Positions 4,894 to 20,632 of a stretch of DNA of 58,386 nt are shown here, in pieces. A program made the position numbers and the translations under genes. The stretch spans positions 1 through 58,386 of the forward strand of contig CACKZH010000004.1 in NCBI GenBank assembly GCA_902604575.1, given 5' to 3'. Under the pieces are notes generated by a model. It did not search any database. It saw nothing but the letters and a program-made list of their open reading frames with translations, and was not told the DNA's origin. This stretch comes from an uncultured Pelagibacteraceae bacterium (GTDB taxonomy: Bacteria; Pseudomonadota; Alphaproteobacteria; Pelagibacterales; Pelagibacteraceae). Within the stretch, counting starts at the first letter, position 1. Each line of letters starts with the position of its first letter.

Positions 4894-6330
4894 ATGAAAA
4901 ACTTTTTTAGAAAAGTTGCTTTTGGCATTGGACCCAATGAGCAAGCTCCCTCTGATCCTTTGAAGTGGGCTCTCAATCAAGTAAATGATGTGCCAGAATT
5001 ATCTTGGAAAGGTAAAATATATTCTGAAAAAGAATTAAGAAAACATTATAGAGATTGGGTTTATGGTGACAGAAAAGTATTAAGAAAAAAGTATAAAGAT
5101 AACAAAACACTATATAAAACTCATAAAGATATACTTAGACATAAAACAGGACAAAAGTTTTGGGAGTCTTTAGAAATTTCTATCAGACATAATGAAGGAA
5201 TAAATAGTAGTAGTCCAGTTTTAGCTAAACTATGGATGTTTTGGGGAAATTTTTTTGCAATTAGTGAAAAAGATTTTTTAGCCAATTATTCAACCGGCCC
5301 TTATCAAAGAGAAATCATTCGACCAAATCTAAACCAATCATATGAAAAAATGGTTTACGATGTGACTACCTCATGGGCAATGATTCATCACTTAGATAAT
5401 AGCGAAAGTGCTGGACCTAAAAGTGTTACAGCAAGAGATGAATGGAGAAGAAAAAAAAAGGAACCTGCAACAATCAATGAAAATCATGCTAGAGAATTAT
5501 TAGAGCTTCATACAGTTTCTCCTAAAGCTGGTTATACTCAAGAAGATGTGATCCAATTAGCTTATATCATGACAGGCTGGCAGCATAAATGGAGCAAAAA
5601 AAATTTAGAAACAGGCAATGTCTGGTTTAATTCTGAATACCATCAACCAGGAAAGAAAAATGTTTTGGGAAAAGAATATAAAAGAGGAAAAAAAACGTTA
5701 GCAGTAGTTATTAAAGATTTAGTAAATCATCCTAATTGTAGAGATTTTGTTGCTGAAAGACTTTGTAGATATTTAATCACTGATGAACCTACAAAAGAAA
5801 TGAAACAACCTATTATTGATGCTTTCAAAAAGACAGATGGATTTTTGCCTGAAATCCATAAAGCTGCAATTAAAGTTGCTTTTGAATACAATGATAGATA
5901 TAAAAAATTTCAGATACCTGAAAATTGGTTAATTCAGATTGCAAAAGTTGCAGATTTAAATTGGCCCCCGTCACCAGATCTAATGGATAAATATGAGCTT
6001 GGTCAAAGACCATTCGATTCACAACGTGAACCAGAATGGATTTTGCAAAATATCGGCCACCATCCTTATAGAGCAAAACAACCAAATGGTTGGTCAGACC
6101 ATTCTGATGATTGGATTTCACCAGAATTATTAATTAGAAGACTTGTATATGCAAAAGCAAGTTACAATTTCTCTAGAATGGAAAATAATAAAAATGCAGA
6201 ATATTATGAACAAATGGTTGATAAAAATTTTGACAACTCAAGTCAAATAATGAAATACATAAATCAAAAAAATAGAGCTGTTGAAAAACATACTTTACTT
6301 TTTAACCACCCGGAGTTTTTAAAAGCATGA
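4894..6330 (+). CDS. DUF1800 family protein
   Basis: NENHARELLELHTVSPKAGYTQEDVIQLAYIMTGW is the DUF1800 signature; paired with DUF1501 downstream. Confidence 0.88.
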   Translation: MKNFFRKVAFGIGPNEQAPSDPLKWALNQVNDVPELSWKGKIYSEKELRKHYRDWVYGDRKVLRKKYKDNKTLYKTHKDILRHKTGQKFWESLEISIRHNEGINSSSPVLAKLWMFWGNFFAISEKDFLANYSTGPYQREIIRPNLNQSYEKMVYDVTTSWAMIHHLDNSESAGPKSVTARDEWRRKKKEPATINENHARELLELHTVSPKAGYTQEDVIQLAYIMTGWQHKWSKKNLETGNVWFNSEYHQPGKKNVLGKEYKRGKKTLAVVIKDLVNHPNCRDFVAERLCRYLITDEPTKEMKQPIIDAFKKTDGFLPEIHKAAIKVAFEYNDRYKKFQIPENWLIQIAKVADLNWPPSPDLMDKYELGQRPFDSQREPEWILQNIGHHPYRAKQPNGWSDHSDDWISPELLIRRLVYAKASYNFSRMENNKNAEYYEQMVDKNFDNSSQIMKYINQKNRAVEKHTLLFNHPEFLKA

Positions 6331-7475
6331 AGATATCAAGAAGAGATTTTTTAAAAACCACAGCTCTAACGTCGTTATATTTTGCTGGTTTTGGAACACC
6401 AACTTATGCATCGGGACCAAAAAAAAATTTAGTGATAATTATGCTTCGTGGTGGAATGGACGGCTTATGTGCAATTCCAATTAAGGGTGATAAAAATTTT
6501 GAAAAATTAAGAAGCAAAATTAATCTCGAAAGAACTTTAAAATTAACATCAGATTTTGATTTACACCCAGCATTAAAAACATTTAAAAGCCTTTGGGATC
6601 AAAACTTAAGTGCAGCAGTACATGCAACTAATATCCCTTATACTGGAAGATCACATTTTGATGGCCAAAACTTAATGGAGTCTGGTGGTAAAATACCTTA
6701 CCAAGAAAAAACTGGCTGGCTAGGAAGAGGAATGAAAACTGCAGGTTTAACAGGACAAGGATTGGCTTTAGCTTTACCGATGCCTTTATTAATTAGAGGT
6801 GTTCCAATGAATAATAATTATTTTCCTGTAGGACGTAGTTTGCCTTATCCTGATACTTTAAAATTAATAAAACAAGCATACAAAGAGCATGACGAAAAAT
6901 TATTAAGTGATAATTTAGAAATAATTCTAAATAGAGATTTTAACAATAGATCAAGAGATGATGCTTGGATTTTAGCTTCAAGTGCTGGTACAGAGTTATC
7001 AAAACCAGATGGTCCTAAAGTTGCAGTTTTTGAAGTGGATGGCTTTGATACGCATGCTGCACAAGGTGCAACTGATGGTGCTCATGCAGATTGTCTATCA
7101 GATTATGACAATATTGTTAGATCTTTAAAATCTTCAATGTCTGAAGAGGCATTTAATAATACTTTAGTTTTAACACTTACAGAGTTTGGAAGAACAATTA
7201 AGCAGAACAGTAGTAATGGGACAGAACACGGATATGGATCTGCTATTTTAATGGCAGGAGGACTTGTTAAAAAATCTCAAGTCCATACAGATTGGCCAGG
7301 ATTAAAGAAAAAAGAATTATTTGAAGGAAGGGATTTAAATTCTACAATAGATTCAAGAGCAATTTATGCTTCAGCAATGTCTACAGTTTTTGATATAGAT
7401 TTTAAGAAAATTACTGAAGAAGTATTTTGGGGAGAGAATTTACCAAATTTATCGGATAAGCTATTTAAAGCTTAA
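6327..7475 (+). CDS. DUF1501 family protein with Tat-like signal
   Basis: SRRDFLKTTALTSLYFAGFG Tat-type leader; LVIIMLRGGMDGLCAIP; TLTEFGRTIKQNSSNGTEHGYGSAILMAGG. Confidence 0.88.
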   Translation: MKISRRDFLKTTALTSLYFAGFGTPTYASGPKKNLVIIMLRGGMDGLCAIPIKGDKNFEKLRSKINLERTLKLTSDFDLHPALKTFKSLWDQNLSAAVHATNIPYTGRSHFDGQNLMESGGKIPYQEKTGWLGRGMKTAGLTGQGLALALPMPLLIRGVPMNNNYFPVGRSLPYPDTLKLIKQAYKEHDEKLLSDNLEIILNRDFNNRSRDDAWILASSAGTELSKPDGPKVAVFEVDGFDTHAAQGATDGAHADCLSDYDNIVRSLKSSMSEEAFNNTLVLTLTEFGRTIKQNSSNGTEHGYGSAILMAGGLVKKSQVHTDWPGLKKKELFEGRDLNSTIDSRAIYASAMSTVFDIDFKKITEEVFWGENLPNLSDKLFKA

Positions 7476-8618
7476 TTGATGAAAAAACTTTTACTAATTA
7501 TTTTTGCAATAATTTTTTCAACTTCTGTTAATGCAAATAAAAATAAAAATACTTGGGACTATCCACTCAGAGTTTATGAAGGTTGGGTAGTTAAAGGATC
7601 AGAAAATCATTACAAATTCAAATCAAATTTAAGACAAGATAAAAATGTTTTAAAAGAATTTAAAAAGAATAAAGATACAGGAATAATTAGCTATCTATTA
7701 TTTGAAAATGATCAAATTGTAATTGATGAGTCTGATATTCCATATTCAGTTCAAGGCGATAAAATTATTGATGGAATGTTACCATCGCACTCGATGGGTA
7801 AAAGTTTAGTTTCCTATGTTACTGGGCATGCTATTTGTGAAGGCTATATTGATAATATAAATGTAAAATTAAATGATTGGCCTTTAATTCAAAATACTCT
7901 TTATGAAAACTCAATACTGCTGGATCTTTTAAACATGAAAGGTGGAGATCAAAAGTGGGTTGGTGAAAGAAGAAATGTTGGATCTGACAATAGGATAAAA
8001 GGTTTAAAAAAAGAGGAAAATGTAAATGTCATTGGCCTAGTTAAGGTAATGAACAAATATTTAAAAGGAACAGAAAAAAGTAAATTAATTTATAATTACA
8101 GTGCCTTGACCACCAATGTGATTATGAATTATGTAAAATTCAAAGCTGGTGATGATTGGGATAAATTATTACACAAAGTATTTAATAAACATGTAGGAGT
8201 TAAAAATAAAGTTCAATTTCAGAAATCTAAAAAATATTTAAATAATGATTTTATTTCAGCAAGATATTCATTTTATGCAAATAGATATGATTACTTAAGA
8301 ATTGCTAAAACAATGATGGATGATTGGCATAATGATACTTGTGCTGGTAAATATTTAAAAACTATCTATGAAAATAGAATTAAAAAGAAAGATAATATAA
8401 AGCATGCAACTGATGTGGGTCTTTATACAAAATCATATGGTGGCCAGATCCATTTTGATATTTTTGGAATTGATAAAAAAAGAAAAATTTTAGGATTAAG
8501 TGGTTTTGCAGGACAACAAATATTAATTGATCTAGATAAAAAAAGAATAATAGTAGTTAGTTCACTATATAGAAACTATAATTGGAAAAAAATTGTTCAT
8601 TCAGTAATTAAAGGTTAG
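7476..8618 (+). CDS. Serine hydrolase, class-C beta-lactamase/NylB-like, secreted
   Basis: Signal peptide; SMGK (SxxK) nucleophile, KSYGGQ KTG-like box; paralog of 17484..18860. Confidence 0.75.
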   Translation: MMKKLLLIIFAIIFSTSVNANKNKNTWDYPLRVYEGWVVKGSENHYKFKSNLRQDKNVLKEFKKNKDTGIISYLLFENDQIVIDESDIPYSVQGDKIIDGMLPSHSMGKSLVSYVTGHAICEGYIDNINVKLNDWPLIQNTLYENSILLDLLNMKGGDQKWVGERRNVGSDNRIKGLKKEENVNVIGLVKVMNKYLKGTEKSKLIYNYSALTTNVIMNYVKFKAGDDWDKLLHKVFNKHVGVKNKVQFQKSKKYLNNDFISARYSFYANRYDYLRIAKTMMDDWHNDTCAGKYLKTIYENRIKKKDNIKHATDVGLYTKSYGGQIHFDIFGIDKKRKILGLSGFAGQQILIDLDKKRIIVVSSLYRNYNWKKIVHSVIKG

Positions 8619-8677: not shown

Positions 8678-10261
8678 ATGGGAAAAATTCGAAATATTCT
8701 TTTTATTATGGCAGATCAACTTAGGTGGGATTATTTATCTTGCTATGGTCATCCTCATTTGAAGACTCCACATATTGATAGTTTAGCAAAAAAAGGAGTT
8801 CAGTTTGATTCTGCGTTTGTGCAATCACCGGTGTGTGGACCTTCAAGAGCATCATATTACACAGGTAGAACAGTTTTTAGTCATGGCTCTACATGGAACC
8901 AGGTTCCACTCCCAATAGGAGAATTAACTATTGGAGATTATCTACGTCAATCAGGAATAAGAACAGGAGTTGTTGGTAAAACGCATATGAGACCAGATTT
9001 AGAAGGTATGAGTAGACTTGGTATTACTAAAGATACAGAAATAGGATTAATTGTTAGTGAACCAGGATTTGATCCATATGAAAGAGATGATGGACTTCAT
9101 CCAAATAATCAAATTAAAAATTCAAAAAAAACTTTATCTTACAATGAATGGTTAAATAAACTTGGATATGATGGACCTAATCCATGGAATGATTGGGCAA
9201 ATTCTGCTGAGGGAGAAAACGGCGAAATATTAAGTGGTTGGAGATTAAGAAACTCTAATAAGCCTGCTAGAATTCCTGAGGAGCACTCCGAAACAGCTTT
9301 CATGACTAATCGTGCAATGGAATTTATTGAAGAGAGTAAAGATAAACCATGGTTTTTACATTTATCTTATATAAAACCCCATTGGCCTTACATGGCACCA
9401 GCTCCTTATCATAATATGTATTCAGCCAATGAATTTTATCCTGTGCATAGAAATGATGCTGAAAGAAATAATGATCATCCAGTCTACAAAGCATTTATGG
9501 AAAATAGTATTTCTAAAACTTTTTCAAAAGACGAAGTCAGAAACACAGTTCTATCTGGATACATGGGTTTGATTAAACAAATTGATGATAATTTGGGAAG
9601 ATTATTTAAGTTTTTAGAAGATACAGGTTATATGGATGATACAATGATCATATTTACCTCAGATCATGGAGACTACCAAGGCGATCACTGGCTAGGTGAG
9701 AAAGAATTATTCCATGAACAATCAGTCAGAGTTCCAATGATTATTTATGATCCGAGTGATTATGCAAATAAAACTAGGGGGACAAAAGAACAAAGATTTA
9801 TTGAAGCAATAGATTTACTTCCAACTTTTTTAGATGCAGTAGAAAGCCCGGTAAGCAAACATAGATTAGAAGGAAATTCTTTAATGCCTATTATTAAAGG
9901 AGAAGATCCAACAAACTGGAAAGATTCTGTTTTTAGTGAAATTGATTATTCATTTAATGAAGCTAGAAAAATATTAAATTTAGGTGCATCGGATGCAAGG
10001 GCTTTTATGATTAGAAATAATGAGTGGAAGTATATTTATTATAAAGGATTTGACCCTCAACTATTTGATTTAAAAAATGATCCTGATGAGTTTAATGATT
10101 TGGGAAAATCTGAAAAATACTCAAAGATTAGAGAAGAAATGAAAGAATTACTTCTTAAAAGAATTATTGATAGAAAAAATAGAGTTGCAGCAAATGATGA
10201 GTTTGTAACTAAAGAAAGAGACTATACCAAAGATGATGGTATAATGATTGGAGTATGGTAG
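8678..10261 (+). CDS. Sulfatase family hydrolase (arylsulfatase/phosphonate monoester hydrolase superfamily), no signal peptide
   Basis: C-x-P-S-R motif CGPSRASYYTGR (Cys at 8834..8836), ADQLRWDYLSCYGHPHLKTPHIDSLA, TSDHGDYQGDHWLGEKELFHEQSVRVPMII. Confidence 0.88.
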   Translation: MGKIRNILFIMADQLRWDYLSCYGHPHLKTPHIDSLAKKGVQFDSAFVQSPVCGPSRASYYTGRTVFSHGSTWNQVPLPIGELTIGDYLRQSGIRTGVVGKTHMRPDLEGMSRLGITKDTEIGLIVSEPGFDPYERDDGLHPNNQIKNSKKTLSYNEWLNKLGYDGPNPWNDWANSAEGENGEILSGWRLRNSNKPARIPEEHSETAFMTNRAMEFIEESKDKPWFLHLSYIKPHWPYMAPAPYHNMYSANEFYPVHRNDAERNNDHPVYKAFMENSISKTFSKDEVRNTVLSGYMGLIKQIDDNLGRLFKFLEDTGYMDDTMIIFTSDHGDYQGDHWLGEKELFHEQSVRVPMIIYDPSDYANKTRGTKEQRFIEAIDLLPTFLDAVESPVSKHRLEGNSLMPIIKGEDPTNWKDSVFSEIDYSFNEARKILNLGASDARAFMIRNNEWKYIYYKGFDPQLFDLKNDPDEFNDLGKSEKYSKIREEMKELLLKRIIDRKNRVAANDEFVTKERDYTKDDGIMIGVW

Positions 10262-10264
10262 TAG

Positions 10265-11578
10265 CTAAGGGGTCATTAAACTTGGTAAATATAAACATAT
10301 TGCTGGAAATGCAATAATCAATGCAAGTCTAATTACATCAGTTAGTAAAAAAGGAATAGTTCCAAACCATATAGTTTGAAGAGGTGTGTTTTGCATCACT
10401 CCTTTAATAACAAACAAATTCATTCCAACTGGAGGTGAAATCAAACCAAATTCAACAACTATTACTGCAAAGATACCAAACCAAACAGGGTCTATTCCTG
10501 CATCAACAATTACAGGATAAAAAACTGGAATAGTTAAGAATAACATTGCCAAAGAATCCATTACTGTTCCAAGCACTAGATAGATTACGCATATAACTAG
10601 AATAATTCCTAATGGTGTTAGCTCTAAATAATTTATAAAGTCAACAACTGCAAAAGGTAATTGTGTGACTGTAATTAAATAATTAAAAATACTTGCTCCA
10701 ATTACAATTAAATATAAAGAACCAACAGTTTTAATTGTTGTCCATAAGGCTTCTTTCAATAAATTTAAAGTAAGTTGCCCCCTTGCAAAAATAAATATCA
10801 AAACCAAGATTACTCCAACAGCTGCACTTTCTGTAGCTGTAAAGAAACCTAAATAAAGACCCCCCATAATTATTGCAAAGATTAAAAAAATTGGGAATAC
10901 TTTTGAAATTGCTGAAATTCTCTCGTTAATAGGCATTTTTTCTCCGTAACCTCCATGAGACGGATAGATTACTAGATAAACTCTAATTGCAATCATGTAT
11001 AAAATTACTGCTATTAGACCTGGAATTAATGCTGCGAAGAATAGTTCTTGAACCGATTGTTCTGTTAAATATGCATAAATAACCAAAATGACACTTGGTG
11101 GAATTATAATTCCAAGTGTCCCTCCAGATGCAATTGAACCACTTATTAAAGCATCGCTATAACCATGTCTTTTCATTTCTGGTCCTGCCATTTGAGACAT
11201 AGTAGCTGCAGTTGCAATAGAAGATCCACAAATCATTCCAAATCCAGCACAAGCTCCTACAGTTGACATTGCTAAACCACCTTTGTAATGACCAACAACT
11301 GCGTATGCAGCATCATATAAATTTCTAGATAAATTTGCACTATTAGCAAGATTTCCCATCAAAACAAAAAGCGGAAGTACTGATAAGGTGTATTTTGATA
11401 CCGCATCAAATGGTGCTGTACCTAAAACAAAAATAGCAGGATCAAATCCTGAGATTAACGCAAAACCAGTGAACCCCACAAGCAACATTGCAATTCCGAT
11501 TGGAATATTTAAAACCATAAGTATTAAGACTGCTGCAAACGCTATACCTCCATTAATGATTGGACCCATTTCCATCAA
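10265..11578 (-). CDS. TRAP transporter large permease (DctM)
   Basis: GFGMICGSSIATAATMSQMAGPEMKRHGY, GTLGIIIPPSVILVIY, FFTATESAAVG, FGLISPPVGMNLFVIKG. Confidence 0.93.
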   Translation of the reverse strand: MMEMGPIINGGIAFAAVLILMVLNIPIGIAMLLVGFTGFALISGFDPAIFVLGTAPFDAVSKYTLSVLPLFVLMGNLANSANLSRNLYDAAYAVVGHYKGGLAMSTVGACAGFGMICGSSIATAATMSQMAGPEMKRHGYSDALISGSIASGGTLGIIIPPSVILVIYAYLTEQSVQELFFAALIPGLIAVILYMIAIRVYLVIYPSHGGYGEKMPINERISAISKVFPIFLIFAIIMGGLYLGFFTATESAAVGVILVLIFIFARGQLTLNLLKEALWTTIKTVGSLYLIVIGASIFNYLITVTQLPFAVVDFINYLELTPLGIILVICVIYLVLGTVMDSLAMLFLTIPVFYPVIVDAGIDPVWFGIFAVIVVEFGLISPPVGMNLFVIKGVMQNTPLQTIWFGTIPFLLTDVIRLALIIAFPAICLYLPSLMTP

Positions 11579-12054
11579 AAATCTTTCCTTAAAGAGTTTG
11601 TTTGAGATAATTCCTTAATAAACCAAAAAACAATAGCTAGTACACTCAACCACATACCAAAAGCACAAATAAAATAAAACGGATAAAAATATAGTTCTAA
11701 ATCAATCGTAACTCTTTCATTTGACATAAATTTTAAAGATGTTTTTGTCGTTGCATAAGCCATTAAAGACATAATGATTATCATTAAAAAGAATTTAAGA
11801 ATTATGAGCCAAGTTTTAAATATTCCTAAATTTAAATTATTAATAAAATCAGCAGATACATTTGCGTTTAGAAAAAAAGCTCTTGGCATTGCTAAGAAAG
11901 CAACTAAAGCCATACCAATTTCAACTAATTCGATTGTTCCTGTAACAGGAGAGTTTAAAAATCTTCGACCAAATACGTCACAGAAAGTTAATACTGATAA
12001 TAGTAAAAGTATTAAACCAGAGGCAATTGCTGAGTAATCAAATATTTTATTCAT
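11575..12054 (-). CDS. TRAP transporter small permease (DctQ)
   Basis: Four-TM protein, CDVFGRRFLNSPVTGTIELVEIGMA; overlaps dctM. Confidence 0.88.
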   Translation of the reverse strand: MNKIFDYSAIASGLILLLLSVLTFCDVFGRRFLNSPVTGTIELVEIGMALVAFLAMPRAFFLNANVSADFINNLNLGIFKTWLIILKFFLMIIIMSLMAYATTKTSLKFMSNERVTIDLELYFYPFYFICAFGMWLSVLAIVFWFIKELSQTNSLRKDF

Positions 12055-12126
12055 ATTTTAAAAAACTATCTTCAAATATATGAAACATTAGCATATAAGG
12101 TTGGTTTAAAACAGAAAGTATTATTT

Positions 12127-12978
12127 ATGAAGTTTATTTCTTATTCGCACAACGATGAAGATAAATTTGGTATTTTAGATAATGATCTTATAACAGATCT
12201 TACAGGTAAAATATCAGGAGCAACTTCTTTAAAAGATCTAATTTTAAAAAAAGGTATCTCGGAAGCAAAGAAATATGCTTCTGCAAACCCTGGTAATTTG
12301 AGTGTAAATGATATTGAGTATTTACCACTAATACCAAATCCTGGAAAAATTATTTGTGTAGGATTGAATTATAGTGAACATGTTAAGGAAACCAATAGAA
12401 CTGTAGAGGAAAATCCAGTAATTTTTCATCGTTTCCCAGAAAGTCAAACCGCACATTTGCAATCAATTCAAAGACCTATTGCTTCAGATAATTTAGATTT
12501 TGAAGGTGAGATGGCTGTAATTATGGGAGAAGCCGGCAAACATATAAAGCCAGAAGATGCTTTAAAACATATAGTTGGTTATTCTTGTTATAATGAAAGT
12601 ACTATTAGAGATTGGCAGAGACATACTAGACAATTTGGAATGGGAAAAAATTTTGAAAAGACCGGAAGCTTTGGACCACACATGGTTCTTGCAGAAGACA
12701 TTAAAGATTATAAAGAGCTTACTCTTGAAACTAGATTAAATGGTGAAGTCATGCAAAATGCAAAATTAAGCCAATTAATTTTTGATATCCCAATATTGAT
12801 TTCTTATGTTTCAAAAGCAATGGCTTGGAGAGCTGGAGATGTACTGGTTACCGGTACACCTGGTGGAGTAGGATTTAAGAGAAATCCACCTATTTTCATG
12901 AAACCTGGCGATAAAGTTGAAGTAGAAGTGACCCAAATCGGTGTTTTATCTAACACAATAAAAGATGAAATAATCTAA
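12127..12978 (+). CDS. Fumarylacetoacetate hydrolase family protein
   Basis: PGKIICVGLNYSEHVKE, DFEGEMAVIMGEAG, GYSCYNESTIRDWQRHTRQFGMGKNFEKTGSFGP, VTGTPGGVGFKRNPPIFMKPGD. Confidence 0.92.
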   Translation: MKFISYSHNDEDKFGILDNDLITDLTGKISGATSLKDLILKKGISEAKKYASANPGNLSVNDIEYLPLIPNPGKIICVGLNYSEHVKETNRTVEENPVIFHRFPESQTAHLQSIQRPIASDNLDFEGEMAVIMGEAGKHIKPEDALKHIVGYSCYNESTIRDWQRHTRQFGMGKNFEKTGSFGPHMVLAEDIKDYKELTLETRLNGEVMQNAKLSQLIFDIPILISYVSKAMAWRAGDVLVTGTPGGVGFKRNPPIFMKPGDKVEVEVTQIGVLSNTIKDEII

Positions 12979-13028
12979 ATTTCACGTTACTATTTTAGAA
13001 TAATTTTAAACAATAAGGGGATAATTTT

Positions 13029-14039
13029 ATGAAAAAGAAATTAATTGGATTAATTATTGGAATTTTTTCTTTCAGTATAGTTAGTGCATCTTCTGCAACC
13101 GAGCTTAAGTTGGCAACTTTTGAACCACCAAAAGCATTTATTGCAAGTAAAATTCTTGCAGCTTGGGCAACAAAAGTTAATCAATGTTCGGGAACATTAA
13201 ATGTAAAAATGTATGCTGGTGGAGTATTAGGAAGTCCTCCTAAACAATATGATATCGTAACATCAGGTGTTGCAGATATTTCATGGACAGTTTTAGGATA
13301 CATTGGAGGTCAATTTCCTTTAAGTTCAGTAATTGAATTACCGTTTCTTACAAGAACGTCTAAAGCTGGAACTACAGCTCTAAACACTCTTTTTAATGAG
13401 GGATATTTAGATAAAGAAATGGCAGGAATTAAAGTAATTGGTCTTCACTCTAATCCTGGATATCAAATTCATATGAAAGATACTAAAGTTGTTAAACCTG
13501 CAGATTTTAAAGGTAAGAAAATGAGAGTACCAAGTAAAATTGCTGGAACAATTTTAAAAACTTTGGGTGCAACGGGAGTGAAAGTACCTGCTCCAGGAAC
13601 TTCTGAAGCTTTAAGCAAAGGTGTTGTAGATGGAACTCCATTTCCATACACTGCTGTAGGTTCATTCAGATTGTTTGATGTAACTAAGTATCATACTGAA
13701 GTTAATATCACTAACGCTACATTTGGTTTAATTATGAATGAAGATAAATTCAATAGTTTATCAGCAGGAGATCAGGCTTGTATAAATAAATATAGTGGCC
13801 ATGCTTTCGGTGATTGGGCTTCAGGTTTAATTGATAATCAAAATGCGATTATGAAAAATGAAATCTCAAAAAGAGATGGGCATGAAATTATAATTGCATC
13901 AGATGATGTTATTGCCGAATACAAAAAAATCTTAGCACCAATTGAATCAAATTGGTTAAAAGAAATGAGTGGAAAAGGTCTTGATGGTGATGCTGTTCTA
14001 AATAGAGCAAGAGAAATTATTACTGCAGTAGAAGGCTAA
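13029..14039 (+). CDS. TRAP transporter substrate-binding protein (DctP)
   Basis: Signal peptide, LKLATFEPP, YDIVTSGVADISWTVLGYIGGQFPLSSVIELPFL, KMRVPSKIAGTILKTLGA. Confidence 0.92.
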   Translation: MKKKLIGLIIGIFSFSIVSASSATELKLATFEPPKAFIASKILAAWATKVNQCSGTLNVKMYAGGVLGSPPKQYDIVTSGVADISWTVLGYIGGQFPLSSVIELPFLTRTSKAGTTALNTLFNEGYLDKEMAGIKVIGLHSNPGYQIHMKDTKVVKPADFKGKKMRVPSKIAGTILKTLGATGVKVPAPGTSEALSKGVVDGTPFPYTAVGSFRLFDVTKYHTEVNITNATFGLIMNEDKFNSLSAGDQACINKYSGHAFGDWASGLIDNQNAIMKNEISKRDGHEIIIASDDVIAEYKKILAPIESNWLKEMSGKGLDGDAVLNRAREIITAVEG

Positions 14040-14057
14040 AAATAACGCACAGTGTTT

Positions 14058-14090
14058 ATGAGCCCACATTTATGTGGGCTCATTTAATTT
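14058..14090 (+). terminator. Hairpin with weak U-tract between dctP and the dioxygenase gene (terminator/attenuator)
   Basis: ATGAGCCCACA-TTTA-TGTGGGCTCAT perfect 11-bp stem followed by TTAATTT. Confidence 0.65.
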
Positions 14091-14102
14091 AAGGAATTCT
14101 AA

Positions 14103-15077
14103 ATGGCTATAAAAGCTCTAAGTTACATTGGAGTAAACTCAGATAAATTTGAAGACTGGTCAGATTACAGTCAAAAAAATTTAGGAATGCAACAAGTTGA
14201 TAGGGGAAAAGATATTTTATCTTTTCGAATGGATGACCAGAAACAGCGTCTGACTATAACCGGTGACAAAGGTGATAACCTTGGATTTTTGGGTTGGGAA
14301 GTGGAAAAAAAAGAAGACTTATCATTTTTTGCATCAAAACTAGAAAAAAATAAAATAGAAGTTCATCAAGGAAAATCTTCATTTGCTGACATGAGATTTG
14401 TCGAGGACTTAATATATTTTGATGATCCACAAGGAAATAGAATTGAATTAATTTATAATCCAATGAACGATACTGATCCATTTAAACCAGGTCGTCCTAT
14501 CTCTGGATTTAAAACTGGCGCATTAGGAATGGGTCATGCCGTAGTACATGTTAAAAAAATTGACGATTTAATTCCATTTTATACAGAGGTTTTAGGTTTT
14601 AAAATTAGCGACTACAGTCACACACCTATCTCTTTATGTTTTTTTCATGTGAATGGAAGACATCATAGTTTAGCATTATTTGGATCTGGCAGAACAGGCT
14701 TTCATCATTTTATGGTTGAATACAATAGCCTTGATGATGTTGGTCAAGGATACGATTTATTGCAATATGAAGATAATAAAATTGCTTACACTTTAGGTCG
14801 ACATACTAATGATTATATGACTTCATTTTATTCAATAACACCATCAGGTTTTTTTATTGAAAATGGTTGGGGTGGAAGAGTTATTGACCCAAATACATGG
14901 AAGCCTATAGAAACTTTTGAAGGACCAAGTTTTTGGGGTCATGAAAGATTATATTTACCAGATGAAGAAAGAATGAAATTTAGAAATAAAAGATTAGAAA
15001 CTGCTTCAGAAGGAAAACAAGCACCACTTTTTATTGATTGCCCTTGGTTATATTCGAATACTATAAACAAAAAATAA
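14103..15077 (+). CDS. Two-domain extradiol ring-cleavage dioxygenase, BphC-like (VOC superfamily)
   Basis: MGHAVVHV, GRHHSLALF, GFHHFMVEYNSLDDVGQGYD, TLGRHTNDYMTSFYSITPSGFFIENGWGGR: matches the BphC core including His/His/Glu metal ligands. Confidence 0.88.
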   Translation: MAIKALSYIGVNSDKFEDWSDYSQKNLGMQQVDRGKDILSFRMDDQKQRLTITGDKGDNLGFLGWEVEKKEDLSFFASKLEKNKIEVHQGKSSFADMRFVEDLIYFDDPQGNRIELIYNPMNDTDPFKPGRPISGFKTGALGMGHAVVHVKKIDDLIPFYTEVLGFKISDYSHTPISLCFFHVNGRHHSLALFGSGRTGFHHFMVEYNSLDDVGQGYDLLQYEDNKIAYTLGRHTNDYMTSFYSITPSGFFIENGWGGRVIDPNTWKPIETFEGPSFWGHERLYLPDEERMKFRNKRLETASEGKQAPLFIDCPWLYSNTINKK

Positions 15078-15096
15078 CAGGATTATTATTTTGTAA

Positions 15097-16554
15097 ATGA
15101 AAATGTATGATGTTGTAATTGTAGGATTTGGTCCAACGGGTGGAACTTTAGCAAATTTATTAGCCCTAAATGGTTTTTCAATATTAGTTTTGGAAAAGGA
15201 AAAAAGTTTTTATCCATTACCAAGAGCAGTACATTTTGATGACGAGATTATGAGAGTGTTTGAAACTATTGGTATAACCAACACTTTTTTAAAACACACA
15301 ATAATTAATAAAGGAACCAAGTTTGTTGATAAAAAAAATAGAGTAATTTTAGATTGGCCAAGACCAAGAGAAATCACTGAGAATGGATGGTATCCTAGTT
15401 ATAGATTTAACCAACCTGATTTAGAAAGAGAACTTAGAAAGAAACTAAAGTCTTACAAAAAAGTTGAAATTAGACAAAGCTCCAATGTTAAAAAAATCAT
15501 AAATAAAAAAAATGAAGTAGGTATTGTATTTGAAGATATTAATTCAAAAAAAATATTTAACATAAAATCAAAATATTTAATTGGTTGTGATGGCGCTAAT
15601 TCAATAACAAGATCACAAATGAAAACAAAAATGAATAATCTTGGTTTTACTCAAAAATGGGCTGTAATAGATTTAATACTAACCAGAGAAAAGAAAAATT
15701 TACCGGATAGAACAATCCAATATTCAAATCCTGCAAGACCCGCTACTTATTGTAGAAATGTAGGTAAAAGAAGAAGATGGGAGTTTGCAATTAAAAAAAC
15801 TGAAAAAATAGAAACTATTCTTTCTGATAAGTATATTTGGAATTTTTTAAAACCCTGGCTTAAAAAAAATGAAGCTAAAATGGAAAGGAAAACTATCTAT
15901 ACATTCCAATCTGCATTAGCCAAAAGTTGGAAGAAAGGCAGAATTTTTTTAGCCGGAGATGCTGCTCATTTGATGCCACCATTTATGGGTCAAGGAATGT
16001 GTGCTGGTATCAGAGATGTTTCAAATCTTGCATGGAAGATTTCACATTGTATAAAGAATGAACATAATGATAAGCTTTTAAATACATACCAATCTGAAAG
16101 ATCTTCAAATGTTAAAGAGTACATAGAAACTACGATGCGTATGGGTGAATTTGTAAATGCAGTAGGAAAGTCCCCGATAACTAGTAATATTTCTGCAGAT
16201 AGTAAAGGTAGAAAAAGTATGAAATCAATAAAACCTAGACTTGGACATGGCTTAGGCGATTTAAAAGATAAGTTTCGAGGAAAAATTTTTCCACAATTTA
16301 TAATTAAGAAAAATAAAAAATTAGATGAAAAGTTTTCTTTAAAACCAGCTTTAATTATATCTGATGAAATAAAAAATATATCTTCAAAAATTAAATTAAT
16401 AAAATCTAAAAATATTAAAAACTTAGAACTCTTTTTTAAGGAACATAACTGTAAAGCTGTTATAGTGAGACCAGATAGATTTATTCTCTCTTCATGTACA
16501 TCGGTTAAAAATTTTAATTCTTATTTAAATAAGAATTTATCTTTATTGGCTTAA
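15097..16554 (+). CDS. FAD-dependent aromatic monooxygenase, MhpA/PheA-like
   Basis: IVGFGPTGGTLANLLALNG, RAVHFDDEIMRVFETIG, YLIGCDGANSITR, GRIFLAGDAAHLMPPFMGQGMCAGIRDVSNLAWKI. Confidence 0.88.
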   Translation: MKMYDVVIVGFGPTGGTLANLLALNGFSILVLEKEKSFYPLPRAVHFDDEIMRVFETIGITNTFLKHTIINKGTKFVDKKNRVILDWPRPREITENGWYPSYRFNQPDLERELRKKLKSYKKVEIRQSSNVKKIINKKNEVGIVFEDINSKKIFNIKSKYLIGCDGANSITRSQMKTKMNNLGFTQKWAVIDLILTREKKNLPDRTIQYSNPARPATYCRNVGKRRRWEFAIKKTEKIETILSDKYIWNFLKPWLKKNEAKMERKTIYTFQSALAKSWKKGRIFLAGDAAHLMPPFMGQGMCAGIRDVSNLAWKISHCIKNEHNDKLLNTYQSERSSNVKEYIETTMRMGEFVNAVGKSPITSNISADSKGRKSMKSIKPRLGHGLGDLKDKFRGKIFPQFIIKKNKKLDEKFSLKPALIISDEIKNISSKIKLIKSKNIKNLELFFKEHNCKAVIVRPDRFILSSCTSVKNFNSYLNKNLSLLA

Positions 16555-17331
16555 TTTAAATAATTTATTTATTGCATCAACTTTCATATGATTATCAGTT
16601 GCAATTTCACCATTAGGCATGAATAATGAATTTTCAAATCCAACTCTAATTTTACCTCCAAGGCTCACAGCTTTTTCCAAGCAGCTCATTTCTTCCTTTC
16701 CAAAGGCACATATTGACCAATCAAGTTTTATATTTTGCTCTTCCATTTTTTTTACAAATAAAGAAATATTTTCTGGATAACTTATTCTTCCGCTATAATG
16801 CCCAATAACAAACAAACACCAAGCATCATTAATTTGAATTTCTGCTTTATTAAGTAATTTGATTAACAAATCTATATCTTCAGGCTGATAAAGTATGTGT
16901 TGAATTTTTGTTCCTGCTTCAGTTAGGTATTTATAAAGTTTAATATCTTCATCTTCTGGATTTCTTGAAGGGATTAATTCCGATGTTCCAATTGATGCTC
17001 CTGGTGGTGTTACATCATATGCAAGCTTTCTCATATCAGCTGGAGAGTATTTTCCAACTGCTTCAGTAGTAACTTGTATATGCATGTTTGGTACCTGATG
17101 CTCTAATTCGTTTAACGCTTCTTTATAAAGTCCAGCATCTAAAACGTGTTGTCCTTCCTTATCTCTAACATGTAAATGGATTGCACCAGCACCTGCTTCG
17201 TAACAAGATTTCGCTGTTGCAACTGTTTCACTAATTGTTAATGGAACAGCTGGATGATCTTTTTTTATTTTTCTAGCTCCATTTGGAGCTACCATTAACT
17301 TAGGTAATTTTTCTGGCTGATAAAAACCCAT
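16543..17331 (-). CDS. BKACE / 3-keto-5-aminohexanoate cleavage family enzyme (DUF849)
   Basis: LMVAPNGARKIKKDHPAVPLTISETVATAKSCYEAGAGAIHLHVRD; GGKIRVGFENSLFMPNGE. Confidence 0.92.
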   Translation of the reverse strand: MGFYQPEKLPKLMVAPNGARKIKKDHPAVPLTISETVATAKSCYEAGAGAIHLHVRDKEGQHVLDAGLYKEALNELEHQVPNMHIQVTTEAVGKYSPADMRKLAYDVTPPGASIGTSELIPSRNPEDEDIKLYKYLTEAGTKIQHILYQPEDIDLLIKLLNKAEIQINDAWCLFVIGHYSGRISYPENISLFVKKMEEQNIKLDWSICAFGKEEMSCLEKAVSLGGKIRVGFENSLFMPNGEIATDNHMKVDAINKLFKLSQ

Positions 17332-17483: not shown

Positions 17484-18860
17484 ATGAAAAAATTATTTCT
17501 AATCGTTGTATTAATCTTTTCATTTCAAAATAATCTTTTAGCTGAAAACTTTAATAAATTTAATAAATGGCTTTTGAAAAATGGCCACTCTCAATATTTA
17601 AAAGATGGGGGTGCAAAGGTTGATCTTTGTGCAACATTTAAAAAAAATAGTGATGCTTGGTTAAATGAAGAATGTGGGAATTATCCTAAAGGAAAAATGA
17701 TAACGATGAACAATTTAGATATTAAGATAAAAAATAAAGCATTATCAGCCACCAATATTTCTTATCATTCAAACCCAAACAGAGATACCCTGATTTATTA
17801 TTTATGGAAATACTCTTATAGAGATAGAAGCTCACATTTAAAAGAATTTAAACCGACAAATAGTTCCTACGATTTTAAATTCAACTTAATTGAAGATGAA
17901 TTTTTAAAAAAACAAATGAAAACCAAAGGTATCCTTAGTTATTTATATTACCAAGATGACGAAGTATTAATTGACGAACTTTCTCCCAAAGAAAGACTGG
18001 GAGAGTTTTTGAATAATGAAACAAAATTTTATTCAATGTCGATGGGTAAGTCAGTAACTTCTTATTTAGTAGGTCATGCCATATGTGAGGGCTATATTGA
18101 TGGAGTTGATGCAAGAGTAAATGACTGGCCTATTATAAAAGACTCAATTTATCATAATCAAAAATTAATTAATTTTTTAAATATGAATACTGGTGATCAA
18201 ATATATATCGATGAGTTTGAAGATGGTACCAGTAAATTAGGGGCATATGAAGATAGAGATATAGAGACAACTATGCGTTTATTCTTTAGAAACAAAAATA
18301 TAAAAAAATCTAAGGAAAGATACAATTACAATGGATTTGTTACTCAGTTAATTTTGAACTACATGAAATTTAAAATCGGTGAAGATTATGACAAATTTTA
18401 TAGCAAAGTTTTCAATGATAAAATAAAGATCAAACATAGCATTCGTTATGGCTATACTAGTTTTAAAGAACATTTTGGAAATGGACATCCTAACATAATG
18501 GCAACGAGATTTGACTATCTTAGAATTGCAAAAGCTATAATGGACGATTATCAGAATGGCACTTGTGTTGGAAAATATTTAAAAGAGATTTACGAAAGAA
18601 GAATACCAAAAGGAAGTAAAGAAAAAGAAGAGCCCTTATTTAATCGTACAAAATCGTACGGGGGTCAATTTCATATGGATTTTCCAGGATTAAAAGACAA
18701 AATTATATTTGGTATGGGTGGCTATGGCGGGAATATGATTTTAATTGATGTAGAAAATTCAAGAATACTAGTTGTAAATTCCCTTCATTATAATAATAAA
18801 AAATATAAATATAATCACAAAAAACTACTGTACGATCCATTTAAAAAAGTAAAAGGTTAA
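17484..18860 (+). CDS. Serine hydrolase, class-C beta-lactamase/NylB-like, secreted (paralog of 7476..8618)
   Basis: Signal peptide; SMSMGKSVTSYLVGHAICEGYID, RTKSYGGQFHMDF, ILIDVENSRILVVNSL. Confidence 0.75.
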   Translation: MKKLFLIVVLIFSFQNNLLAENFNKFNKWLLKNGHSQYLKDGGAKVDLCATFKKNSDAWLNEECGNYPKGKMITMNNLDIKIKNKALSATNISYHSNPNRDTLIYYLWKYSYRDRSSHLKEFKPTNSSYDFKFNLIEDEFLKKQMKTKGILSYLYYQDDEVLIDELSPKERLGEFLNNETKFYSMSMGKSVTSYLVGHAICEGYIDGVDARVNDWPIIKDSIYHNQKLINFLNMNTGDQIYIDEFEDGTSKLGAYEDRDIETTMRLFFRNKNIKKSKERYNYNGFVTQLILNYMKFKIGEDYDKFYSKVFNDKIKIKHSIRYGYTSFKEHFGNGHPNIMATRFDYLRIAKAIMDDYQNGTCVGKYLKEIYERRIPKGSKEKEEPLFNRTKSYGGQFHMDFPGLKDKIIFGMGGYGGNMILIDVENSRILVVNSLHYNNKKYKYNHKKLLYDPFKKVKG

Positions 18861-19697
18861 ATGAAAAAAATTATATTAATCATTTCATTTATATTATTTT
18901 CTGGTGCAGCATTTTCAGATGGGCACAAAGTTAAATTCAAAGATATTAAAGGCTATAAAAAGCAATTTATTTCTATGCATAAAAAAAAAGTAAATAGAAT
19001 TATAGAAGTAAAAGCATCTGAGGGATTTCCAGTATATGAGGGAGAAACAAGTATTCAAGTTACTGTAAATAGAGAAGATGCAGGTTGTGGTACAGGAAAG
19101 GCACAAACAACTCAAATTCAATGTGATGGTAAGGGCAATAGAAGTAGACAAGAATTAAATTTGGGTGATATGAAACTTAAAAATAAAGAACATATTTTTG
19201 AGTACGCTGTTTATTTTGATGAAACTTATGAACCTTTAAAAAAGGGTGCTGTAGTAATAATTGGACAGATGCATACTGACAACAAAGCAAAAGGTTGTCA
19301 TAGTTGTTGTCATTTTTGGGCTCAAGATTTTAAATATAAAGGGGAGCATTATTATAGTTGGGCTAGCAAAGCAGCCTATTCATCTGAACCTGTTGTAATT
19401 GGAAAAATTGAAGATCTAAAAGGAAAATGGACACACCTAAAGTTTCATGTCCTTTGGAAGCTTGATGAAACAGGTAGGTTTAAAATTTATAAAAATAATG
19501 AAGTTATCGCAGATCTTAAAAATATAAAAACTTTAGCTGATACTTGCACGGGTGGTTATATGAAATTTGGAATTTATAGACATCGTACAATTGGTTATTG
19601 GAATTCAGATTGGGAAAGTTTGCCAGACCAAAGAGTTTATTTAGATAGTATAGTTTTTAGAAAACCAAAAAAAGAAGAGAAATTTAAAAATCAATGA
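18861..19697 (+). CDS. Secreted polysaccharide-lyase-like protein (heparin lyase I fold family), Cys-rich
   Basis: Signal peptide; NRSRQELNLG, YAVYFDETYEPL, IIGQMHTD, GYMKFGIYRHR, VYLDSIVF; divergent paralog of next gene. Confidence 0.55.
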   Translation: MKKIILIISFILFSGAAFSDGHKVKFKDIKGYKKQFISMHKKKVNRIIEVKASEGFPVYEGETSIQVTVNREDAGCGTGKAQTTQIQCDGKGNRSRQELNLGDMKLKNKEHIFEYAVYFDETYEPLKKGAVVIIGQMHTDNKAKGCHSCCHFWAQDFKYKGEHYYSWASKAAYSSEPVVIGKIEDLKGKWTHLKFHVLWKLDETGRFKIYKNNEVIADLKNIKTLADTCTGGYMKFGIYRHRTIGYWNSDWESLPDQRVYLDSIVFRKPKKEEKFKNQ

Positions 19698-20632
19698 AAA
19701 AAATTTTAGGTATTCTATTTCTTAGTTTGTTATTAAGTGGAAATAGTTATGCAAAAAAATTTGTCAAACTTCCAAAAGATGTAGGCTCTGGATCAAAATT
19801 TTATAAAAGTTTAACTGGTAAAGGCTATAAGAAACATGGATTTCAAATTGTAAATAAAGAAGACGGTCATCCAGTTAGAGCTGGAAGCCAATCTGTAAGA
19901 TTTGAAGTGAGACAAGGAGATTGTGGAAAGGACTCGGACGGAGGTTGGAGTGATTGTAAAAATGACAGAGAGCGTCATGAGTTAAGTGGAGGTGACAGCG
20001 CAATGTCTAGCGGAGAACATTGGTTTTCTTGGTCAATATATTTTCCAAAAGATCACCAAAACCTTTACCCATTGAGTAATGCATTTGGTCAATTTCATCA
20101 AAAAAATGGAAATCCAATATTTATGTTCAAAGAACTTCGAAAAGGATACACAATTGTAAGAACTATTACAGATAATGATTGGGATTATCACGAACAAAAT
20201 TTGATAACTAATGATGAGGCTCTAGGTAATTGGTTTGATATATTGATAAATGCAAAATGGTCAAAAAAAGAAGATGGATTTTTTAAAATTTGGGTCAATG
20301 GTGACCTAAGATATGATTACAAAGGTCCAACAAAATCAAAATCTAAGGTTTATCAAAAGTTTGGTGTCTATAGAACAGGAATAACCAGATATTTAAATTA
20401 TGTAAATGTTGATGGAATTGATAAATGTTTACGTGAAAAAGAATCTACTAATAAAGATTATACCACTTTGTATAAATTAAAGAGAAAAAAATTTCCCGGA
20501 CATAAAAACTCAATAAATCTTTTTAAAAAGTGTAATAGTTATTATGATGTTAAGAATGTTCCAACAACAATAATCTATTTTGATGAAGTTAGAAGAGGAA
20601 AATCTAAAGAAAAAGTTGGTATATTTAATTAA
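19694..20632 (+). CDS. Secreted polysaccharide-lyase-like protein (heparin lyase I family, PF14099-type)
   Basis: Signal peptide; NDRERHELSG, WFSWSIYFPKDH, FGQFHQKNGNPIF, KKEDGFFKIWVNG, YQKFGVYRTG, IIYFDEVRRGK. Confidence 0.7.
   Translation: MKKILGILFLSLLLSGNSYAKKFVKLPKDVGSGSKFYKSLTGKGYKKHGFQIVNKEDGHPVRAGSQSVRFEVRQGDCGKDSDGGWSDCKNDRERHELSGGDSAMSSGEHWFSWSIYFPKDHQNLYPLSNAFGQFHQKNGNPIFMFKELRKGYTIVRTITDNDWDYHEQNLITNDEALGNWFDILINAKWSKKEDGFFKIWVNGDLRYDYKGPTKSKSKVYQKFGVYRTGITRYLNYVNVDGIDKCLREKESTNKDYTTLYKLKRKKFPGHKNSINLFKKCNSYYDVKNVPTTIIYFDEVRRGKSKEKVGIFN

Follow-up and report, generated by a model that had tools for sequence, protein, structure and literature searches.

Can a SAR11 bacterium take up an aromatic acid and open its ring? 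SAR11 are among the most abundant bacteria of the ocean; their cells are stripped down, the usual picture is that they live on small, simple compounds, and ring cleavage is not usually expected of them. The question is raised by a 58,386-nucleotide stretch of DNA (the window), which is contig 4 of a 0.92-Mb draft genome (69.9% complete) of an uncultured Pelagibacteraceae bacterium. An initial annotation had singled out eight neighbouring genes as a candidate aromatic catabolic island: a sulfatase (SULF), the large permease, small permease and solute-binding protein of a tripartite ATP-independent periplasmic (TRAP) transporter (DctM, DctQ and DctP), a fumarylacetoacetate hydrolase (FAH)-family enzyme, an extradiol dioxygenase (DIOX), an FAD monooxygenase (MONO) and a beta-keto acid cleavage enzyme (BKACE). 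All eight open reading frames proved intact between positions 8678 and 17331 and correctly classed, as judged by Pfam and NCBIfam profile matches (Table 1). We read the island as a unit for the breakdown of an aromatic carboxylic acid, with a short FAH/BKACE route and a substrate that is probably an aryl sulfate ester, and give this reading a probability of about 50%. It draws on what can be read from the sequences: gene content, co-conservation, active sites, a solute-binding protein of the TarP type, an arylsulfatase signature and a classical lower pathway that is missing at curated cut-offs.

The eight genes are one fixed, strictly co-conserved unit. Among 80 SAR11 loci retrieved through a dioxygenase query, 68 had all eight genes in identical order and orientation, which is every locus not cut by a contig end (68/68); the remaining 12 lacked genes solely past a contig end, with zero counter-examples. 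Across the 80 loci, the lowest identities to the window were 81% for SULF, 92% for DctM, 79% for DctQ, 83% for FAH, 82% for DctP, 87% for DIOX, 67% for MONO and 59% for BKACE. The closest named relatives (98% DIOX identity) were Pelagibacteraceae single cells, in agreement with the SAR11-like host suggested earlier. In an evenly drawn sample of 300 same-genus genomes, all drafts, SULF was present in 42, DIOX in 37 and MONO in 35. SULF and DIOX occurred together in 36 of these genomes where about 5 were expected by chance (Fisher p ~4e-39, uncorrected for relatedness), and DIOX was present in every genome with MONO. Seven apparent exceptions (SULF without DIOX in six genomes and the reverse in one) were discarded, as all were at contig ends. 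Internal stops were found in 0/42 SULF copies. Among the 44 genomes that were at least 90% complete, six carried the island, and its frequency is ~12–14% of this SAR11 genus, or about one in eight genomes. Co-conservation, by which the initial annotation had proposed to judge the island, thus held across genomes.

The transporter points to the class of substrate. By sequence, the best solved relatives of DctP were 7nr2 (E 3e-50), 5i5p (E 1e-44), 5iga, 5im2, 7nsw, 7nrr and 7nqg, spanning E 3e-50 to 3e-36; further TRAP receptors matched at E 1e-34 to 1e-23, and all others from 1e-14 upward. The titles of the best entries and their companions name TarP with coumarate, cinnamate, caffeate, ferulate or 4-hydroxyphenylacetate, and other titles among them describe a marine metagenome TRAP solute-binding protein specific for aromatic acids. 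These ligand labels are titles of structure entries already matched by sequence (Foldseek output was used for the titles only). An AlphaFold2 model of DctP, built on a shallow SAR11-only alignment, was rejected as too weak (pLDDT 47). Arg166, which from the alignment and family knowledge we take to be the TRAP carboxylate-binding Arg, was invariant, and DctP therefore has both the closest relatives and the carboxylate Arg of a TarP-type aromatic-acid binding protein. For these two reasons, the compound imported by DctP-DctQ-DctM is most likely an aromatic acid; import of an aromatic had been suggested for this transporter. For coumarate, caffeate and ferulate, the dissociation constants of TarP are in the nanomolar range (PMC3610893).

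The ring-modifying enzymes carry the expected catalytic features. DIOX aligned nearly end to end with BphC (1han), confirming the BphC-like assignment with its His/His/Glu ligands. The metal ligands H145, H202 and E253 and the second-sphere residues H188, H234 and Y243 all matched, which is the 2-His-1-carboxylate plus His, His and Tyr set of type I extradiol (VOC/BphC) dioxygenases, and none of the six varied among 91 SAR11 copies and 9 others. As its score against the BphC equivalog TIGR03213 (261 bits) did not reach the cut-off of 366, DIOX was considered related to BphC and was not assigned to it. MONO, previously described as an MhpA-like FAD monooxygenase, passed the cut-off of NF004829 (501.7 bits, cut-off 390), a match that does not imply a substrate.

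For the steps after ring opening, we scanned 42 island-bearing genome sets (~36 distinct genomes) at curated cut-offs; some genomes reached through loci are the same as some of the genus sample, and the counts here and in the maturase scans described below include a few duplicates. No BphD-type C-C hydrolase, DmpE-type hydratase or 4-hydroxy-2-oxovalerate aldolase was over its cut-off in these carrier genomes, in which, at these cut-offs, the canonical mhp/bph meta-cleavage set of C-C hydrolase, 2-oxopentenoate hydratase and aldolase was not seen. Matches to the aldolase were rejected as weak and fragmentary; most were to ~530-aa proteins that are probably isopropylmalate-synthase-like. FAH has an NYxxHxxE dyad (H85/E88) and a metal Glu pair (E126/E128), all invariant, and with PF01557 this fits the fold and residues of FAH-superfamily acylpyruvases; it also matches the models for HpaG and for 2,4-didehydro-3-deoxy-L-rhamnonate hydrolase, which acts on a 2,4-diketo acid, without reaching either cut-off. 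Outside SAR11, we considered seven loci with a 54–61% identical DIOX (two Martelella, Rhizobium ACO-34A, Pannonibacter, Roseinatronobacter and two other alphaproteobacteria). FAH was adjacent to or near DIOX in six of the seven; the monooxygenase was orthologous to MONO (39–41%) in four and a different FAD monooxygenase in three. In the Roseinatronobacter locus, TRAP permeases and a distantly related BKACE were close by, and none of the five annotated loci (whose gene tables are incomplete) had an annotated MhpC, MhpD or MhpE gene. Because FAH is the partner of DIOX outside SAR11 and no classical lower pathway was found over cut-off, FAH most likely acts itself on the ring-opened product, and MhpC, MhpD and MhpE would then be unnecessary. 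The initial annotation had called the pathway incomplete for want of a hydrolase, hydratase and aldolase; their absence at curated cut-offs stands, but the incompleteness is probably wrong.

A route consistent with these enzymes can be written as follows. DctP-DctQ-DctM would import the aromatic carboxylic acid, probably as an aryl sulfate ester, and the cytosolic arylsulfatase would free the phenol. The MhpA-type monooxygenase would add a hydroxyl to give a vicinal diol, and the BphC-type dioxygenase would open the ring beside the substituent. If a ring hydroxyl lies meta to the newly formed diol, the extradiol product would be a 2,4,6-trioxo acid, which is an acylpyruvate, and FAH could split it into pyruvate and a beta-keto acid, R-CO-CH2-COO-. 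BKACE would then convert this acid and acetyl-CoA to R-CO-CoA and acetoacetate. The pattern corresponds to a 5-substituted resorcinol (3,5-dihydroxyphenyl-R) hydroxylated to 2,3,5-trihydroxyphenyl-R, and with such a ring the route would close without a C-C hydrolase, hydratase or aldolase. A propionate R would give 3-oxoadipate as the beta-keto acid; the island BKACE matches the NCBIfam BKACE model for 3-oxoadipate without passing its cut-off. We infer the sequence of reactions, the resorcinol pattern, intracellular desulfation and every activity. Precedents for a short route of this kind are the orcinol route and the DntD/DntG route; our literature search for orcinol or acylpyruvate gene precedents returned nothing useful.

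Several points weigh against this reading. All genomes are drafts, and the resorcinol pattern was derived from pathway logic alone. FAH fell under every equivalog cut-off, so its reaction is not assigned. BKACE has Asn at position 234 in 77/77 copies, where the solved relatives shown have Asp; this Asp follows the metal Glu and, like the Arg, is catalytic in Kce. Because of this Asp-to-Asn change, BKACE is the least secure part of the proposed route, even though its Zn ligands (His, His, Glu) and Arg are invariant. Generic alpha/beta hydrolases weakly matched the BphD model in 40/42 sets (best 81 bits, cut-off 462). Finally, no formylglycine-generating enzyme (FGE) was found in the genome of the window or in any of 55 SAR11 genomes, and no anaerobic sulfatase-maturating enzyme (anSME) in 40 SAR11 genomes.

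The alpha/beta hydrolases bear on an alternative in which DIOX cleaves a conventional 3-substituted catechol, the meta product is split by an unlinked generic alpha/beta hydrolase, and other acyl products are left to FAH and BKACE, close to what the initial annotation had proposed. Such rings are the classical substrates of BphC-like and MhpA-like enzymes, and weak BphD matches are found in nearly all carrier sets. However, none of these hydrolases reaches the BphD cut-off and none is linked to the island, the hydratase and aldolase are likewise missing over cut-off from carrier genomes, and the conserved neighbour of DIOX is FAH rather than an alpha/beta hydrolase. We consider this alternative rather unlikely.

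The proposed desulfation would be the work of SULF. SULF gave full-length matches to 4upl (E 5e-175), which we take to be SpAS2, and to 4upi (E 1e-180), both arylsulfatases of S. pomeroyi. The latter is SpAS1; in this class Lys101 and His103 mark arylsulfatases, and Tyr and Thr/Asp mark phosphonate hydrolases (PMC5488252). SULF carries K101 and H103, and its C53, P55, R57 and metal residues were invariant in 85 SAR11 sequences (some from the same genome), so that it has the complete SpAS1-type set (Cys in CxPxR, Lys101, His103 and metal residues). Its catalytic domain begins at residue 4 with no signal peptide ahead of C53-G-P-S-R, bearing out the earlier description of an intact CxPSR motif in a cytosolic protein, and SULF is predicted to be a cytosolic arylsulfatase-type enzyme. 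It is the sole sulfatase of its genome.

The initial annotation had noticed no FGE and had named its absence from the genome as grounds for refuting the proposal. Indeed, neither an FGE nor an anSME was found. The lone PF03781 match in the 55 genomes (G064) was rejected as FGE because it is EgtB (522.7 bits to TIGR03440), and weak radical-SAM matches in 26/40 genomes were rejected as anSME (at most 43.8 bits against a cut-off of 349). This EgtB (ergothioneine synthase), the sole PF03781 protein in the 55 genomes, adjoins a PhyH-like gene at locus L108. A choline sulfatase without the formylglycine modification still slowly turns over, and formylglycine is formed in E. coli via a route not yet identified (PMC6189696), so the missing FGE and anSME do not exclude SULF function. 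Since the Cys of SULF does not vary and the island always retains its sulfatase, we read their absence as pointing to an unknown or dispensable maturation and not as a refutation.

A second alternative keeps the aromatic pathway as proposed and has SULF act on some other compound, on phosphate or phosphonate esters, or poorly for want of maturation. Besides the missing maturases, it is favoured by the promiscuity of the enzyme class toward phosphate and phosphonate esters (PMC5488252), by related DIOX/FAH clusters outside SAR11 that are without this sulfatase type, and by the separate transcription of SULF, beside which other genes insert. Yet SULF never leaves the island wherever contigs permit the test, K101/H103 place it in the arylsulfatase branch, no other sulfatase is present in its genome, and its relatives on other bacterial plasmids are often beside tripartite tricarboxylate transporter (TTT) or TRAP transporters, sometimes with cupin or FAH genes. 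On balance this seems unlikely.

The flanking genes of the island vary between strains, and the convergent SULF/DctM junction hosts strain-specific genes in L004, L012, L017, L024 and L030. By reading of their sequences, these genes are GFA-like, PhyH-like, a ROK-like kinase and a 114-aa membrane protein with no significant Pfam match; SULF is kept in the island despite the insertions. In spite of the variable flanks and these insertions, it is very improbable that the eight are independent genes brought together in a shared variable region by history only, an idea largely refuted by co-occurrence, since all eight keep their order in 68/68 complete loci, MONO, DIOX and SULF co-occur, and a related core recurs in other Alphaproteobacteria. 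Divergent MONO and BKACE alleles were seen in L003, L005–L007 and L009 (BKACE ~12447–13235), in islands otherwise near-identical, with BKACE 59–64% identical to the window against 97% for other copies, which suggests recombination at the 3' end of the island.

Table 1 Features of the island in the window.
Feature	Position	Strand	Basis
SULF, arylsulfatase-type, predicted cytosolic, 527 aa, CGPSR motif (C53), signature K101/H103	8678..10261	+	PF00884; closest structures 4upi/4upl
DctM, TRAP large permease	10265..11578	-	PF06808; TIGR00786 over cut-off
DctQ, TRAP small permease	11575..12054	-	PF04290
FAH-family hydrolase, proposed acylpyruvase, dyad H85/E88, metal Glu 126/128	12127..12978	+	PF01557; residues invariant
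DctP, TRAP solute-binding protein, TarP-like	13029..14039	+	best sequence matches 7nr2, 5i5p
Hairpin, 11-bp, dctP/dioxygenase intergenic	14058..14083	+	region folds stably in 86/86 loci
DIOX, BphC-type extradiol dioxygenase, 324 aa, H145/H188/H202/H234/Y243/E253	14103..15077	+	profiles; 1han alignment
MONO, MhpA-subfamily FAD monooxygenase, 485 aa	15097..16554	+	NF004829
BKACE-family enzyme, 262 aa, Zn ligands kept, Asn234	16543..17331	-	PF05853

FAH had been described as inserted between the permeases; instead, it heads a plus-strand operon (FAH-DctP-DIOX-MONO) from which the minus-strand DctQ-DctM pair diverges across a 72-bp gap (12055–12126). SULF (+) converges on DctM and BKACE (-) on MONO. 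The intergenic hairpin may raise the mRNA of the binding protein relative to those of the enzymes. A promoter scan gave no signal over shuffles, and the GC content of the island was 31.6% against 29.7% in the remaining window. Two related proteins (7476–8618 and 17484–18860; 380 and 458 aa) flank the island; both have signal-peptide-like starts and an S-M-G/x-K-S motif that resembles the one of SxxK serine hydrolases, but neither matched a Pfam or NCBIfam family. Beyond the second are two adjacent exported polysaccharide-lyase-like proteins (18861–19697 and 19694–20632; PF14099), unexpected for a SAR11 genome, and partial homologues of these are near the island in other strains. A DUF1800 and DUF1501 pair (4894–7475), the second with a weak twin-arginine signal match, is upstream of the island in many, not all, strains.

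If the reading is true, some SAR11 would draw on phenolics or phenolic sulfates in dissolved form, a fraction of marine organic matter about which little is understood. The set of enzymes points to ring cleavage that finishes with FAH and BKACE in place of the textbook lower pathway, and the island genomes suggest a sulfatase without a known maturase. Protein families, gene linkage and active sites, as predicted from sequence, give good support to the proposal of an aromatic catabolic island in SAR11; the sulfated substrate and the exact ring are hypotheses. In its fullest form, the island would encode a complete, previously undescribed SAR11 short meta-cleavage pathway from a sulfated resorcinol-type acid to pyruvate, acetoacetate and an acyl-CoA, with the sole sulfatase matured by a formylglycine route other than FGE or anSME or run unmodified, a version we regard as tentative and doubtful in the whole. 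The literature covered on SAR11 aromatic catabolism (mostly titles and abstracts, most subscription journals being outside its scope) did not report the island, which is weak evidence of novelty.

Parts of the island have counterparts in known systems. SULF is ~52% identical to a plasmid copy in R. pomeroyi (Silicibacter/Ruegeria), the species of the SpAS1/SpAS2 arylsulfatases, and has the Cys and K101/H103 of this type; unlike SpAS1/SpAS2, its host lineage is without detectable FGE or anSME and its gene is fixed in an aromatic island. TarPQM of R. palustris is a TRAP transporter that takes up aromatics derived from lignin (PMC3610893); its TarP, TarP_Sse, TarP_Csal and the marine-metagenome aromatic-acid binding proteins are closest to DctP in sequence, although at only ~30% identity to the TarP group the likeness does not settle the ligand; unlike TarPQM, the transporter here is linked to a sulfatase and ring cleavage. 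The plasmid clusters of Martelella, Rhizobium ACO-34A, Pannonibacter and Roseinatronobacter, for which we found no characterisation, encode a DIOX 54–58% and an FAH 41–48% identical to those of the island, next to an FAD monooxygenase and, in 4/5 clusters, TRAP genes, but are without this sulfatase type and have a BKACE nearby solely in Roseinatronobacter. In the fde/ifc flavonoid A-ring pathways (FdeE/FdeC of Herbaspirillum and IfcA/IfcB of Variovorax), an FAD monooxygenase acts on a resorcinol- or phloroglucinol-type ring and a VOC dioxygenase follows (PMC11069340). The island resembles them in this hydroxylation-then-dioxygenation, a likeness by description and not by sequence, whereas they use an alpha/beta C-C hydrolase candidate where the island has FAH and BKACE (PMC11069340). 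The mhp/bph pathways likewise share an MhpA-type hydroxylase followed by a BphC-type dioxygenase with the island, which differs in having no MhpC/BphD, MhpD or MhpE at cut-off and in carrying FAH and BKACE.

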